Shown piece by piece: positions 32,546-38,710 of a DNA stretch of 64,000 nucleotides. This DNA comes from Natrarchaeobius oligotrophus. GTDB taxonomy: Archaea; Halobacteriota; Halobacteria; Halobacteriales; Natrialbaceae. Under the pieces are notes generated by a model that saw only the letters and a program-made list of their open reading frames with translations, had not been told where the DNA came from and did not search any database. How positions within the stretch are numbered: position 1 is the first letter of the stretch; every line of letters starts with the position of its first letter. The translations under genes were made by a program, and so were the position numbers. The stretch covers positions 62,001-126,000 of the forward strand of contig NZ_REFZ01000001.1 in assembly GCF_003841465.1 (NCBI RefSeq), read 5' to 3'.

Positions 32546-35068
32546 ATGATCCCCGCCGAGATCGACGTCGACAGAACCCTTCCCTCCGGTGGGGCGGTCA
32601 AACACGCCCTCGAGTCGTACGCCGAAGCCGCCGTCGGAACGGACGCCGAGATCACGCGCTTTCACCGGGTGTTCTACCCCGTCTTCCGCCTCGAGTACGA
32701 GTACGAGCGATCGGGACGACTCCCGTGGGGCGACGGAACCGCCCGCAGCGTGACCCTGCTCGACGGCCTGTGGGCCGACAACCACGCGGCGCTCCAGCAG
32801 TATCGAGCGGGGGCGGACGACCTCGAGACGGTGTCGCTCCGGGCGTACGACTTCGGTCGCGATCGGTCCGGGCCCGGTCGGTCCGTCCTGTTCGACTTCC
32901 AGGTGCCGACCCAGCGCGCGAAGCGGCTGCTTCCCGAGCGACTGGGCGAGATCGCGGAGTCCCGAGCGTTCGACGATCCGCCGTCGATCGCGTCGTCGTT
33001 TTCCGAGCGACTGGCCGAGACGTTCGACCTCCCGGCGGACCTCGAGCCGGACTCGTTCGGCGGCGTCGTCGACGTGACGCGGCTCTATCTTCCGTTTTGG
33101 GTCTGTGAGGTGTACCGGCCGGACGACCGCGACCTCATCGGCGTCGTTCGAGACGTCGAAGACGCACGCGGCGACGGCGAATCAGCCCACGACTGGCTCT
33201 CGGCGTTCCTGCGCGAGGACAAGGGTCGACTCTCGCGGTTCGCCCACACGGCGACCGGACGAGCCGCCCCCTCCGAACCGGTCCGGGACGGGGCCGGATC
33301 GAGCGACGGGAATGACGCGAGCGGCGACGGATCGACGGACTCGCCGGACGGTTCCGCGGACGGTCCGGCTGATTCGTCCGACCGCGTCGGGGACGGCCGG
33401 TCCGTTCCGAACCCGGACCAGGGGTCCCGATCCAGCGAGCCGGTTCAGCCCGACGGTGCCGAGCTCGAGGCGCGGACGCTCGTCGATCCGAGCCCGGACC
33501 GGTGTTTCGGCGACGTCGGCGGCATGGTCGAACTCGAGCGGACCCTCCGGCGGACGATCGTCGATCCCGTCCGCCGGCCGGAGGCGTTCCGGGAGTACGG
33601 ACTCAATCCGGTCTCCGGCGTCCTCCTGTACGGCCCGCCGGGGTGTGGAAAGACCTACGTCGCGGGGGCGCTCGCCGGCGAACTCGACCGTTCCTTTCTC
33701 GAGGTGACGCCCGCGGACCTCTCGAGTAAGTACATGGGCAAACCCGCCGAGAACGTCCGGGACGTCTTCTCGATCGCGGAGGCGAACGCTCCCTGTCTGC
33801 TCTTTCTGGACGAGATCGACGCGATCGCGAGCGCCAGGGAGGACCGGTCGAGCACGAGCGAACGCGGCATGGTCAACCAGTTGCTGACCGAACTCGAGGA
33901 CGTCTCCGAGGAGGTGCTCGTCCTCGCGGCGACGAACTTGCTCGAGGACGTCGACGACGCGATCGTTCGGACGGGCCGGTTCGACGAACGGATCGAGGTG
34001 CCGCCGCCGGATCCGCCCGCGCGCCGGGAGATCCTCGAGATCCACCTCCAGGGGCGGCCGGTGTGTGCGGACGTCGACCTCGAGCGCGTCGTCGAGCGGA
34101 CGGCCGGCTACGCCGCCAGCGACCTCGAGTACGTCGCGACCGACGCGGCCCGTCGAGCGCTCGGCGACGGCGCGGAGATCGATACCGAGCACCTGCTGGC
34201 TTCGGTCTCCGAGACGGACTCGAGCGTGCCGGACTGGGCCGGCTCGGCCCTCGGAACCGCCAAGACGATCACCCAGCCCGACGGCGTCGAGTTGAGCGCG
34301 CGGTCGCTGATGACGCCGTCCGTCGACCGCGGGTTCGACGACGTCGGCGGGATGGACGGGCTGAAAGATCGGCTCCGGGAGAGGGTGATCGATCCGCTCG
34401 AGAACGCACAGCGGTACGCCGAGTACGGACTCGGCGTGACGACCGGCGTCGTGCTGTACGGTCCACCGGGGTGTGGAAAGACCTACGTCGCGGGGGCGCT
34501 CACCGGCGAACTCGACTGTTCCTTTCTCGAGGTGACGCCCGCGGATCTGACCAGCAAGTGGATGGGAAAGCCGGCTCAGAACGTCTCGGACCTGTTCGAG
34601 ATCGCACGAGCGAACGCGCCGTGTCTGGTCTTCCTGGACGAGATCGACGGGATCGCGGGCTCGCGCGGCGAAAGAGAAGGGGCCAGCCAGCGCCAGATGG
34701 TCAACCAGCTGTTGACCGAACTCGACGGGCTGACGGACGAGGACGTCGTCGTGGTCGCGGCGACCAACCTGCTCGAGGACGTCGACGACGCGATCCTCCG
34801 ATCCGGCCGATTCGACGAGCGAATCGAGGTGCCGCCGCCCGACGCCGCCGCACGACGCGAGATACTCGAGGTTCACCTTCGAGACCGGCCGGTCGCCGAC
34901 GGGCTCCCGTGGGAGGCGGTCGTCGAGTACACCGACGGCTACGCGGCGAGCGACCTCGCGTTGCTCGCGGACAACGCCGCCCGCGCGGCGATGCGAGCCG
35001 GCGACCGCGTTCGCGAGCGCCACCTCCTCGAGGCGGTCTCCGAGACGGGGTCGAGCATCGACGGCTGA
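32546..35068 (+). CDS. Tandem AAA+ ATPase of the CDC48/VCP class with non-CDC48 N-terminal domain
   Basis: An 840-residue protein. Residues 1-230 are an unrecognised domain (FHRVFYPVFRLEYEYERSGR; TRLYLPFWVCEVYRPDDRD), and 245-305 is a low-complexity Asp/Ser/Gly linker. D1 has Walker A GPPGCGKT (from residue 363), Walker B LLFLDEIDAIA, sensor-1 ATNLLEDVDDA and arginine finger RTGRFDERIEV. D2 has GPPGCGKT (from residue 639), LVFLDEIDGIAG, and RSGRFDERIEV, so both rings should hydrolyse ATP. CDC48-type proteins unfold substrates, but the usual double-psi barrel N-domain is absent, so targets differ. The two modules share an 82-nt near-identical DNA block. Confidence 0.87.
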   Translation: MIPAEIDVDRTLPSGGAVKHALESYAEAAVGTDAEITRFHRVFYPVFRLEYEYERSGRLPWGDGTARSVTLLDGLWADNHAALQQYRAGADDLETVSLRAYDFGRDRSGPGRSVLFDFQVPTQRAKRLLPERLGEIAESRAFDDPPSIASSFSERLAETFDLPADLEPDSFGGVVDVTRLYLPFWVCEVYRPDDRDLIGVVRDVEDARGDGESAHDWLSAFLREDKGRLSRFAHTATGRAAPSEPVRDGAGSSDGNDASGDGSTDSPDGSADGPADSSDRVGDGRSVPNPDQGSRSSEPVQPDGAELEARTLVDPSPDRCFGDVGGMVELERTLRRTIVDPVRRPEAFREYGLNPVSGVLLYGPPGCGKTYVAGALAGELDRSFLEVTPADLSSKYMGKPAENVRDVFSIAEANAPCLLFLDEIDAIASAREDRSSTSERGMVNQLLTELEDVSEEVLVLAATNLLEDVDDAIVRTGRFDERIEVPPPDPPARREILEIHLQGRPVCADVDLERVVERTAGYAASDLEYVATDAARRALGDGAEIDTEHLLASVSETDSSVPDWAGSALGTAKTITQPDGVELSARSLMTPSVDRGFDDVGGMDGLKDRLRERVIDPLENAQRYAEYGLGVTTGVVLYGPPGCGKTYVAGALTGELDCSFLEVTPADLTSKWMGKPAQNVSDLFEIARANAPCLVFLDEIDGIAGSRGEREGASQRQMVNQLLTELDGLTDEDVVVVAATNLLEDVDDAILRSGRFDERIEVPPPDAAARREILEVHLRDRPVADGLPWEAVVEYTDGYAASDLALLADNAARAAMRAGDRVRERHLLEAVSETGSSIDG
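33638..33719 (+). repeat. AAA module D1 conversion-like block
   Basis: 82 nt around the D1 Walker A match the D2 block at 34466-34547 with only three mismatches, including silent third positions, while flanking sequence of the two modules diverges. Confidence 0.75.
34466..34547 (+). repeat. AAA module D2 conversion-like block
   Basis: Partner of the D1 block at 33638-33719. The first 36 nt are identical in both. The block codes CGKTYVAGAL...SFLEVTPADL. Confidence 0.75.
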
Positions 35069-35240: not shown

Positions 35241-36038
35241 ATGGTCGATCGAGTCGTTCTCTATCGGGCCCCCTCGGCCGTCGCCGACGTCGGCGAACTC
35301 GCGGACTGGCTGAGGCGGCGAATCGACGCAGACGTCGTCGTCCGCGACCGATTTCTCGAGGTCCACCGGAGCGACGACCTCCCCGAACGGTTCGCGCAGG
35401 CGCGCGTGACGTCGCCGTACGACCGCGACACGGGAAATACGATGCTCGGAACGATCCGCTACGAGGAGCGCGCGCTCGAGGATCCCGCGCGGGAGGGCGG
35501 CGTCCTCTACGACGGCGTGGTCGTCCAGCGGGCGCTCAACGCCGCGTTGCCGGCGGACGAACGCGGTCTCGAGACGCTGCACGTCGCCGTCCTGGACCGG
35601 GCGATCGGAACGTGGGGGGACCACGACGGCCGCTGGCACAAGCGGGTGAACGTTCTGGGCCAGCCGGCAATCGTCTCGGTTCCCGGCCTCTACGAGGCGC
35701 CCGCGAAACCCGAGTCGTACTACGAAGAAAAGCAACGCCACGCGCTGCTCTCGGGGGATACGCCGCCGCGGGAAGTCCTCGAGAACCAGGTCGAAGGCGA
35801 GTTCCTCGTCGAGGACGATCCGCGGACCACCGACGCGCTGAAGGGGTACGCGCTCCAGCCCTACCACTACCTCGAGACGGGCGAGGGGTTCTGCGATCGG
35901 GAGGGGTGTCGGCTGTTCAACGCGCACTACCACGAAGCGCTGATCGAAGCGCAGCTTCGCGATCCCTCCTTCTGCGAGCGACACGCCCGACTGTACGAGC
36001 CGTCGGCCGAATCAGGAGCGGCGAATGACGCGGAGTGA
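35241..36038 (+). CDS. Metzincin-like DUF6775-type protein
   Basis: A 265-residue conserved haloarchaeal protein that I place, with moderate confidence, in the DUF6775 putative metallopeptidase group. Conserved blocks are SPYDRDTGNTMLGTIRYEER, DGVVVQRALNAALPADERG, DRAIGTWGDHDGRWHKRVNV and VLGQPAIVSVPGLYEAPAKP. The C-terminus has a zinc-like set Cys218, Cys223, Cys245 and His248 (CDREGC...FCERH). This recalls the second zinc site of archaemetzincins (CX4CXMX17CXXC). The catalytic HExxHxxG of those enzymes is not found; the matching region reads ALQPYHYLETGEGFC. It may be a non-catalytic relative. The gene sits alone after the AAA gene. Confidence 0.65.
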   Translation: MVDRVVLYRAPSAVADVGELADWLRRRIDADVVVRDRFLEVHRSDDLPERFAQARVTSPYDRDTGNTMLGTIRYEERALEDPAREGGVLYDGVVVQRALNAALPADERGLETLHVAVLDRAIGTWGDHDGRWHKRVNVLGQPAIVSVPGLYEAPAKPESYYEEKQRHALLSGDTPPREVLENQVEGEFLVEDDPRTTDALKGYALQPYHYLETGEGFCDREGCRLFNAHYHEALIEAQLRDPSFCERHARLYEPSAESGAANDAE

Positions 36039-36107: not shown

Positions 36108-37874
36108 ATGACTGGCTCCGTTTCGGACGGCTGCGATAGACCCCTCGTCGGTCGCAGAGCGGTGCTCGCGGCGACGACAGGGCTGACGGTCGGGACGAGC
36201 GGGTGCGTCCGTCGCGTCCGCAGCATCGTCAACCGGGACGGGATCGATCAGCTCTCGCTGACGATCACCACCGTTCCGGCCGACGGCGACAGGGAGAGCA
36301 TTTTGCTCGCACGAGCCGTCCGAGCCGCGTTCGAAGACGCCGGAATGGACGTACGCATCGAGATGCGTTCTCAGGAGGAGTTCTTCCGATCGGTCCTCAT
36401 CAACCACGACTTCGACGTCTACGTCGGCCAGCATCCCGGCGGCGTCGATCCGGACTACCTCTACGAGGCGCTCCACTCGCGCTACGTCGACGAGGCGGGC
36501 TGGCAGAACCCGTTCGGCTTCTCGAACCTGGCGTTCGACGACGTTCTCGAGGCCCAACGTGCGGCCGACGGGGACGACCGCGAGGAGGCGGTTGCAGACA
36601 CTCTCGAGGCGCTGGCGGCCGAACAACCGTTCGTTCCGATCTGCGTCCCCGACGAGTACCGCCTCGCCAGGACCGACCGGTTCGACGGCTGGGACGACGC
36701 CTCGCTCGCGACCCGGACGGCTCTCCTCGGGCTCGAGCCGGTCGGAGACGACGCCGACGATCGGACGCTTCGCGTCGTCCACACCGACGCCCGCCCGGCC
36801 GAGAACCTCAATCCGCTGATGGTCGAGTACCGCGACCAGGGCGGGATCGCCGACCTCGTCTACGACTCGCTTGCGACGGAGACCGACGACGGTGACGTGA
36901 CGCCCTGGCTCGCGACCGACTGGGAGTGGGACGACGGAACGATGACGGTCGATCTTCGCGAGGACTGTCAGTTCCACGACGGCGAGACGCTCACGGCCGA
37001 GGACGCGGCGTTCACCTATCGGTTTCTCGCGGACACGACGCTCGGCGGCGACGTCGCGGCGCCGTCGCCGCGCTATCGCGGCCGCGTCGCGTCGGTCGAG
37101 TCGGTCGACGACCTCGACGAGCACCGTCTCGAGCTGTCGTTCGAAACGGGAGCGCCGGCGGCGGAGCGAGCGCTGACGGTGCCGGTGTTACCGAAACACG
37201 TCTGGGAGGAGCGATCGGAGGTTCCGTCCGTTCCGGGCGTCCGCGTGGCCGGCGGAACGACGGAGGCGCTGGTGACCGACAACGTTCCGCCGATCGGGAG
37301 CGGCCCCTTCCGGTTTACCGAGTGGCAAGAACGCGACTACGTCGCATTCGAGCGCTTCGACGACCACTTCACGCTCGAGGACGGCGTCGACCGTCCCGAG
37401 CCGACCGTCGCCGCGCTTCGGGTGAGCATCGATCCGCGAAGCACGTCGGCCATCGAGCGCGTCGCCGACAACGACGCCGACGTTACGACGCTCCCACTCG
37501 AGAGCTACGTGGTCGACGACGTACTCGAGTCCTCGAGAGAGGACGTTCGGGTGCTCGAGACGCCGTCGTGGTCGTTCTATCACCTGGGATTCAACGCCCG
37601 GAAAGCGCCGTTCGGCAATCCGCGATTTCGGCGCGTCGTCGGCCGCCTCCTCGACAAGGAGTGGCTGGTCGAGGACGTCTTCGACGGACACGCCCGCCCC
37701 GTCGCGACGCCGGTGACGCCGGAGTGGGTCCCCGACGCGCTCGAGTGGAACGGCGAGGACCCCGCGGTGCCGTTTCTCGGCGAAGGCGGTCGACTGAACG
37801 AAACTGCCGTGAGAGATGCGTTCGAAGACGCGGGCTTTCGACACGACGGCGATCGACTCCGGGTGAGTCGCTGA
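36108..37874 (+). CDS. Oligopeptide-type ABC substrate-binding protein, apparently circularly permuted
   Basis: A 588-residue exported protein with a Tat-like start (GRRAVLAATTGLTVGTSGC; lipobox-like Cys34). Residues about 48-185 look like the last third of an SBP_bac_5 protein: SLTITTVPADGDRESILLA, DFDVYVGQHPGGVDPDYLY and FVPICVPDEYRLARTDRFDG. From about residue 200 the sequence resembles the start of the family: LRVVHTDARPAENLNPLM, PWLATDWEWDDG, FHDGETLTAEDAAFTYRFL, GSGPFRFTEWQERDYVAFE and FNARKAPFGNPRFRRVV. It ends at LRVSR, just where lobe II would begin. No permease or ATPase gene is adjacent. Overlaps the PAP2 gene (TGATG). Confidence 0.78.
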   Translation: MTGSVSDGCDRPLVGRRAVLAATTGLTVGTSGCVRRVRSIVNRDGIDQLSLTITTVPADGDRESILLARAVRAAFEDAGMDVRIEMRSQEEFFRSVLINHDFDVYVGQHPGGVDPDYLYEALHSRYVDEAGWQNPFGFSNLAFDDVLEAQRAADGDDREEAVADTLEALAAEQPFVPICVPDEYRLARTDRFDGWDDASLATRTALLGLEPVGDDADDRTLRVVHTDARPAENLNPLMVEYRDQGGIADLVYDSLATETDDGDVTPWLATDWEWDDGTMTVDLREDCQFHDGETLTAEDAAFTYRFLADTTLGGDVAAPSPRYRGRVASVESVDDLDEHRLELSFETGAPAAERALTVPVLPKHVWEERSEVPSVPGVRVAGGTTEALVTDNVPPIGSGPFRFTEWQERDYVAFERFDDHFTLEDGVDRPEPTVAALRVSIDPRSTSAIERVADNDADVTTLPLESYVVDDVLESSREDVRVLETPSWSFYHLGFNARKAPFGNPRFRRVVGRLLDKEWLVEDVFDGHARPVATPVTPEWVPDALEWNGEDPAVPFLGEGGRLNETAVRDAFEDAGFRHDGDRLRVSR

Positions 37875-38710
37875 TGCTGGTCCGCGTGCTCACCCAGTTG
37901 CTCGTCGTCATCACGCTGTTGACGATCGTTTCGACCGCGGCGTTCGTCGGCCGGTACCGGCTGCGCGATACCCGCCTCGAGTGGCGGCGACGACTCCGGG
38001 CTGTGGCTCCGATAACCGTCCTGCTGGCGGTCGTCCTCCTGTTCAACAGCGTCGCCAGACAGGTCGTCCCGGAGCTTTCGTGGATACTCGACTGGAACCT
38101 CACCTGGGCGATCTACGATCTCGAGGGCCAGTTCATCGTCTGGCTGCAGTCACAGGCGACGCCGACGCTGACGGCGTACTTCTCGTTCATTTACATCTAC
38201 GGCTACATCTTCTTGCTCGTCTTTCCCGTCGTCGCTTACTTCGCGCTCTCGAACACGAGACCGCTCAGGGAGCTGCTGGCGGCGTACACGCTGAACTACG
38301 CGCTCGGACTGGTGCTGTACGTCTTCATCGTCGCGTACGGCCCGCGAAACGTGATGCCCGAACTGGTCGAGGCGCTGCTGTACGATACGTATCCGCAGTA
38401 TCAACACCTCACCCGGCAGGTCAACCGCAACACGAACGTCCTGCCGTCGCTTCACACCTCGCTCGCGGCGACCGTCACGTTCATGGCCTACCGGACGCGG
38501 GGCGTCTACCCCGGCTGGTTCCTGCTCGCTACCGTCCTCGGGATTTCGGTCGCCATCTCGACGATGTATCTCGGGATCCACTGGGCGATCGACGTACTCG
38601 CCGGGATCGCCCTCGCGTACGTCAGCGTCACGGCCGCGGCACGACTCGTCGGCCGGTGGTCGGCGTCGACGTGGCTCCGAAATCGCGTCTCGTCGATCCG
38701 AAAACGGTGA
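37874..38710 (+). CDS. PAP2 superfamily membrane phosphatase (Aur1-like)
   Basis: A 278-residue protein with about six hydrophobic helices. The PAP2 active-site motifs are PSLHTSLAATVTFMAYRT and STMYLGIHWAIDVLAGIALA, giving the two catalytic histidines and the Asp that stabilises the second. The loop before them (GPRNVMPELVEALLYDTYPQ) matches the PAP2_3/inositolphosphotransferase-like subgroup. Members remove phosphate from lipid or isoprenyl phosphates or transfer head groups. The ATG shares a base with the TGA of the substrate-binding protein, so the two are translationally coupled, suggesting a lipid- or peptide-linked task at the membrane. Confidence 0.88.
   Translation: MLVRVLTQLLVVITLLTIVSTAAFVGRYRLRDTRLEWRRRLRAVAPITVLLAVVLLFNSVARQVVPELSWILDWNLTWAIYDLEGQFIVWLQSQATPTLTAYFSFIYIYGYIFLLVFPVVAYFALSNTRPLRELLAAYTLNYALGLVLYVFIVAYGPRNVMPELVEALLYDTYPQYQHLTRQVNRNTNVLPSLHTSLAATVTFMAYRTRGVYPGWFLLATVLGISVAISTMYLGIHWAIDVLAGIALAYVSVTAAARLVGRWSASTWLRNRVSSIRKR

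Follow-up and report, generated by a model that had tools for sequence, protein, structure and literature searches.

Our analyses centered on a 64,000-nucleotide stretch of DNA from Natrarchaeobius oligotrophus (contig NZ_REFZ01000001.1, positions 62,001 to 126,000 of the forward strand), hereafter called the window, and on a gene that occupies positions 36108 to 37874 of its + strand. This open reading frame starts with an ATG at 36108, stops with a TGA at 37872–37874 and comprises 588 codons. The ORF, PF00496, a canonical hidden Markov model (HMM) and an AlphaFold2 (AF2) model identify its 588-aa product as a circularly permuted substrate-binding lipoprotein (SBP) of the SBP_bac_5 family (cluster C). 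The protein opens with a twin-arginine lipoprotein signal, GRRAVLAATTGLTVGTSGC (36108–36206, + strand), recognized from sequence and conservation, in which the twin-arginine motif, GRRAVLAATTGLTVG, is followed by the lipobox cysteine, C33, at 36204–36206. Among 30 relatives of the window SBP, this cysteine is invariant and the twin arginines are at least 90% conserved. Tat export and lipidation are assigned from these motifs, and the window SBP is predicted, by motif, to be exported and tethered to the membrane.

Two blocks joined by a linker follow on the same (+) strand. Block 1 (residues 47 to 195; 36246–36692) corresponds to DppA 370–519, the canonical C-terminal part, and holds the latter half of lobe II with the return into lobe I; it was delimited by the canonical HMM (60 bits) and by alignment with AppA. 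The linker (residues 196 to 217; 36693–36758), placed by alignment and in the model, lies between the former C and N termini; it differs in length among relatives and has pLDDT values of ∼70 to 90. Block 2 (residues 218 to 588; 36759–37871) corresponds to the canonical N-terminal part, with DppA 28–341 aligned, as seen with the canonical HMM (167 bits, to residue 539) and with PF00496 (profile positions 2–278, to residue 577). It contains lobe I together with the initial half of lobe II, ending past a helix and the first hairpin strand, at about DppA 370.

The SBP stop codon overlaps the start codon of the next gene (TGATG), which spans 37874–38710 on the + strand and encodes a 278-aa PAP2_3-family membrane phosphatase/phosphotransferase (PF14378, E = 2e-16, 60.6 bits against a cutoff of 27; PF01569, E = 2e-10). 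Its motifs GPRN, NVLPSLHTS and STMYLGIHWAID are largely invariant in relatives, and an IHWAID motif is present; the GPRN, PSLH and IHWAID motifs are consistent with an active enzyme of the PAP2_3 family. The upstream neighbor of the SBP gene (35241–36038) encodes a probable metallopeptidase of the DUF6775/DUF7001 type. This gene was not detected next to the SBP in the related loci L040–L065 and therefore lies outside the SBP–PAP2 module. Positions 32546–35068 of the window encode a double AAA ATPase resembling CDC48, in which the N-terminal region is long and the spacer is acidic and rich in Ser, Asp and Gly.

A preliminary description of this DNA had proposed that the reversed order of the blocks reflects a circular permutation. 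PF00496 matches the window SBP with 158 bits (cutoff 32.4) in two stretches, the better of which places residues 264–577 on profile positions 2–278 of 368 (E = 4e-46). An HMM built from 55 canonical proteins, in E. coli DppA numbering, aligned residues 47–195 with DppA 370–519 and residues 218–539 with DppA 28–341, and alignment with AppA (1xoc) placed query residues 40–195 on 352–502 and 247–547 on 48–317. A profile of 30 sequences likewise aligned with the best solved chains in two pieces of reversed order; among these Protein Data Bank matches (best 60 of 102), no best stretch ran across the new junction and no permuted cluster C protein of solved structure was present. The canonical N-to-C block order thus fails in the window SBP, and since its blocks are reversed, the protein is a permuted variant of SBP_bac_5 and not a canonical member.

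When canonical sequences were doubled, the window SBP scored higher and its alignment wrapped from the canonical end to the canonical start with all six of six references. For example, the score against DppA rose from 146 to 170 upon doubling, with the alignment covering t367–814 of the 510-residue unit. Seven other permuted proteins each gave one wrapped alignment on doubled canonicals, with a higher score in most pairs, while six canonical control proteins gained 0 to 8 points, mostly 0, and the maximum over 100 shuffles was 84. The same block order, which the preliminary description had suggested looking for in other haloarchaea, was found there at full-length identities of 35 to 72%. Conservation of the reversed order at this level in many haloarchaea rules out a frameshift and an assembly artefact; an artefact of a single genome is likewise excluded, as the order holds across many genera.

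AlphaFold2 modeling of the mature chain with 30 homologues produced one fold (mean pLDDT of 87.9, pTM of 0.87) in which both blocks are confident. In Foldseek searches of the Protein Data Bank, the model matched cluster C proteins (NikZ, AppA, DppA, OppA and AccA) with E values down to 3e-17. Only ∼390 of 556 residues were aligned, with TM-scores near 0.45, a partial coverage that is expected when a sequence-order aligner is applied to a permuted chain. The window SBP is accordingly predicted to adopt the bilobal cluster C fold, and its sequence and the confident prediction together suggest that it is structurally equivalent to a canonical receptor.

These data also bear on a fusion between an unrelated N-terminal domain and a truncated canonical SBP. 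The preliminary description had named, as the outcome that would refute the permutation, a single end-to-end PF00496 match in normal order beside an unrelated N terminus, and this proved false. Although a fusion would accommodate a main PF00496 stretch that spans profile positions 2–278 only, the N-terminal block scores 60 bits against the canonical C-terminal region in the canonical HMM; it also wraps when canonical sequences are doubled, and it folds with the remainder of the chain (pTM of 0.87). As the N-terminal block is recognizably canonical C-terminal sequence, we dismiss such a fusion as scarcely credible. Block order in the HMMs, the doubled-sequence test, conservation and the confident structure prediction all bear out the permutation, and the window SBP is almost certainly a natural circular permutation of a DppA/OppA-type SBP_bac_5 receptor, belonging to the peptide/opine/nickel type of cluster C.

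The position of the cut differs from that first described. The protein had been thought to end where lobe II should begin; with lobe limits that we take from general knowledge of DppA, the cut is instead a helix-to-strand hairpin turn inside lobe II, not the boundary between lobes I and II, and the first half of lobe II stays at the C terminus of the window SBP. In the lineages examined, the cut always falls within this one hairpin, at residues ∼370 to 373 of the DppA precursor: permuted chains end just past the helix that corresponds to DppA AKALLKEAGLEKG and start at the FSIDLW-equivalent strand. Based on the alignment and strand assignment, RHDGDRLRVSR at the C terminus of the window SBP and DQLSLTITT at its N terminus look like the two halves of the hairpin. 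By sequence and prediction, the chain starts at the helix-to-strand hairpin of lobe II, completes the latter half of this lobe and returns to lobe I; a short linker joins the old ends, after which the chain passes through lobe I and then the opening half of lobe II, stopping one strand ahead of its starting point. Following Tat export, the lipid anchor at C33 would sit beside lobe II rather than lobe I, and the permuted receptor may still close on its ligand in a Venus flytrap manner.

The permutation is not peculiar to the window gene. A two-HMM classifier for permuted versus canonical order assigned 122 ORFs as permuted, 67 as canonical and none as mixed (99, 55 and 0, respectively, among unique proteins). 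For the wider distribution, a profile built from 23 permuted proteins was searched and matches across the junction were counted. Among the sampled Halobacteriales, 90 of 146 genomes and 44 of 57 genera have such matches, as do ∼10 of 149 genomes of a Bacillota sample, 4 of 148 of a Desulfobacterota sample and 2 of 198 of an Actinomycetota sample, the phylum labels of the latter three being those of their center loci. Full-length permuted proteins are also encoded on alphaproteobacterial plasmids (Nitratireductor, Roseomonas, Ketogulonicigenium, Maritalea, Microvirga and Neorhizobium). These plasmid-borne members and those from the Desulfobacterota, Bacillota and Actinomycetota samples exclude a trait restricted to haloarchaea. 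The rest of the archaeal phylum yielded canonical matches, save one permuted gene in genome G239. This gene (L138, 1330–3072), from the same phylum and outside the order, encodes an SBP with a Sec-like signal that is devoid of a lipobox and with a PGF-CTERM-like tail (TPGFGVIAVIAGVMAATYLLRRRR), which would place the anchor at the new C terminus. Seven SBP_bac_5 genes of the N. oligotrophus genome are permuted and at least four are canonical. In a Deltaproteobacteria MAG of 5.5 Mb (G294, the record of L066), ∼40 SBP_bac_5-type matches were observed, among them at least four near-full-length permuted paralogues. In the annotated records examined, permuted proteins are labeled merely "ABC transporter substrate-binding protein."

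Coupling to a PAP2 gene instead of permease genes, also remarked on in the preliminary description, turned out to be conserved in the window subfamily. Among its unique copies with readable flanks, a PAP2 gene lies directly 3′ of the SBP in 54 of 56 and an ABC permease in 0 of 56; at the window locus itself, cognate permease/ATPase genes are not encoded with the SBP and the PAP2 gene is found downstream instead. The sole copies with readable flanks that lack a downstream PAP2 gene are L056 5902–7680 and L026 1492–3270. Tandem SBP–PAP2–SBP–PAP2 duplications of the pair are present at L042, L043, L045, L046 and L047. The other permuted members are mostly permease-coupled: among unique members with a readable downstream side, an ABC permease/ATPase gene lies directly 3′ in 30 of 41 and a PAP2 gene in 0 of 41, and annotated ABC operons surround permuted SBPs in Nitratireductor, Roseomonas, Ketogulonicigenium, Halalkalicoccus and Maritalea. 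Since most of these members precede DppBCDF-type genes, the permutation is compatible with ABC-receptor function, and their retention of the permease excludes the permutation as the cause of permease loss.

How these arrangements might translate into function can be framed as follows. Permuted relatives in intact DppBCDF operons presumably hand ligand to the importer, whereas the window subfamily would have lost its permease partner and formed a two-gene module with the PAP2 membrane enzyme. That the window SBP is a permuted receptor of the flytrap type and part of a PAP2-linked module we consider very probable. Gene order suggests a functional link between the two proteins, in which a Venus flytrap receptor that is lipid-anchored on lobe II may serve the PAP2 enzyme. 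The working model that we favor, in which a phosphorylated or lipid-linked ligand would be captured at the outer membrane face for PAP2, or a PAP2 product retained there, is put forward tentatively in these specifics. In the HMM alignment, which is uncertain in this loop, the window SBP has no Asp at the position of D408 of mature DppA, the Asp that contacts the peptide N terminus. As an equivalent of D408 is apparently not conserved, given this loop alignment, a classical peptide ligand is doubtful, and the ligand is probably of another kind. Alternatively, the window SBP could be permuted but otherwise an ordinary ABC receptor that uses a DppBCDF-type permease encoded elsewhere, the PAP2 gene being merely cotranscribed. 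Its closest permuted cousins are indeed receptors of ABC operons, and the genome holds several DppBCDF sets. However, a permease supplied in trans fits poorly with a PAP2 gene beside 54 of the 56 unique subfamily copies and a directly downstream permease beside none, and with the joint duplication of the SBP–PAP2 pair; we regard it as unlikely.

The phylogeny raises the question of one origin or several. On the best tree of 57 representatives, a large permuted clade includes the window SBP; outside it, among canonical proteins, lie L006 (from the N. oligotrophus genome), L138 (G239) and L182–186 (Bacillota sample). This tree needs five changes of order, at least three of which are forced by well-supported branches. 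FastTrees of the N-terminal and C-terminal parts alone also leave L006, L138 and L182–186 outside the main clade. Constraining the permuted proteins to a single clade was 96 lnL units worse (p-AU of 0.0025), for a grouping that was named after first sight of the tree. Two canonical-order proteins of the Desulfobacterota sample, L166 and L172, branch inside the main permuted clade at a fork that lacks resolution, possibly as a reversion or an unresolved sister group. A permuted SBP encoded in a DppBCDF operon of the N. oligotrophus genome (L098 9568–11217, C7) groups on the tree next to a canonical SBP from that genome and is a candidate for a second permutation within one genome. A single ancient permutation, with the scatter put down to long branches, to halophile composition or to gene conversion involving canonical paralogues, would account for the identical cut in all lineages, and the tree does have long branches and composition bias. 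The cost of the single-clade tree, the well-supported changes and the partial-sequence trees argue against it, and we give this single origin a substantial but minor share of belief. Judging from these trees, permutation has likely recurred at one hot spot, but this falls short of proof because of the long branches, the halophile composition, possible gene conversion, the post hoc group and the nesting of L166 and L172. The full scenario, whose chances we put just short of even, is that cluster C SBPs were permuted at least three separate times at the same lobe II hairpin, that the products are working ABC receptors with their ends and anchor on the other lobe, and that one lineage gave rise to a haloarchaeal permease-free module of receptor and PAP2 enzyme.

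Natural circular permutation is rare among large binding proteins. The proteins described here form a subclass in which topology was swapped while function was apparently kept, possibly several times at one site, and this possible recurrence is the most surprising part. With them, the extent to which chain order matters for the fold can be examined on natural proteins, as can the questions of why the lobe II hairpin tolerates new ends and of whether permease docking changes once the lipid anchor sits on the opposite lobe. They also serve as a warning about domain tools that depend on sequence order and about profile boundaries, both of which split permuted SBPs. The PAP2-linked branch in turn points to an unexplored role for a binding lipoprotein that works with no transporter. 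The partner protein matches PAP2_3 (PF14378) and retains PSLH and H-x3-D type motifs; we know of no description of a PAP2 protein paired with a solute-binding lipoprotein. Our search of the open literature, with subscription papers outside its scope, found no report of permuted SBP_bac_5/cluster C proteins.

Comparison with the canonical cluster C proteins of SBP_bac_5 (PF00496), including DppA, OppA, AppA and NikA, reveals homology to the window SBP across both blocks, a predicted bilobal fold in common and DppBCDF operons that are shared with the wider permuted family. The canonical termini, however, lie on lobe I, whereas the permuted termini lie on the lobe II hairpin and the block order is reversed. 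All matches of the window SBP were to cluster C (best 60 of 102 sequence matches and Foldseek), with no homology to MglB or cluster B among them. The only natural precedent that we found among binding proteins belongs to that other SBP cluster: Treponema pallidum Tp0684 (TpMglB-2) is a naturally permuted glucose-binding lipoprotein of the ABC type that has retained ligand binding and a conformational change (closure), and its authors proposed the label "cluster Bc" (PMC4990184). TpMglB-2 and the window SBP are alike in being naturally permuted, lipid-tethered ABC-type binding proteins, but TpMglB-2 is of the MglB type (cluster B) and is permuted in its N lobe with a different cut, and the two permutations are not homologous. 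By the naming logic applied to Tp0684, the permuted cluster C proteins would be "cluster Cc."
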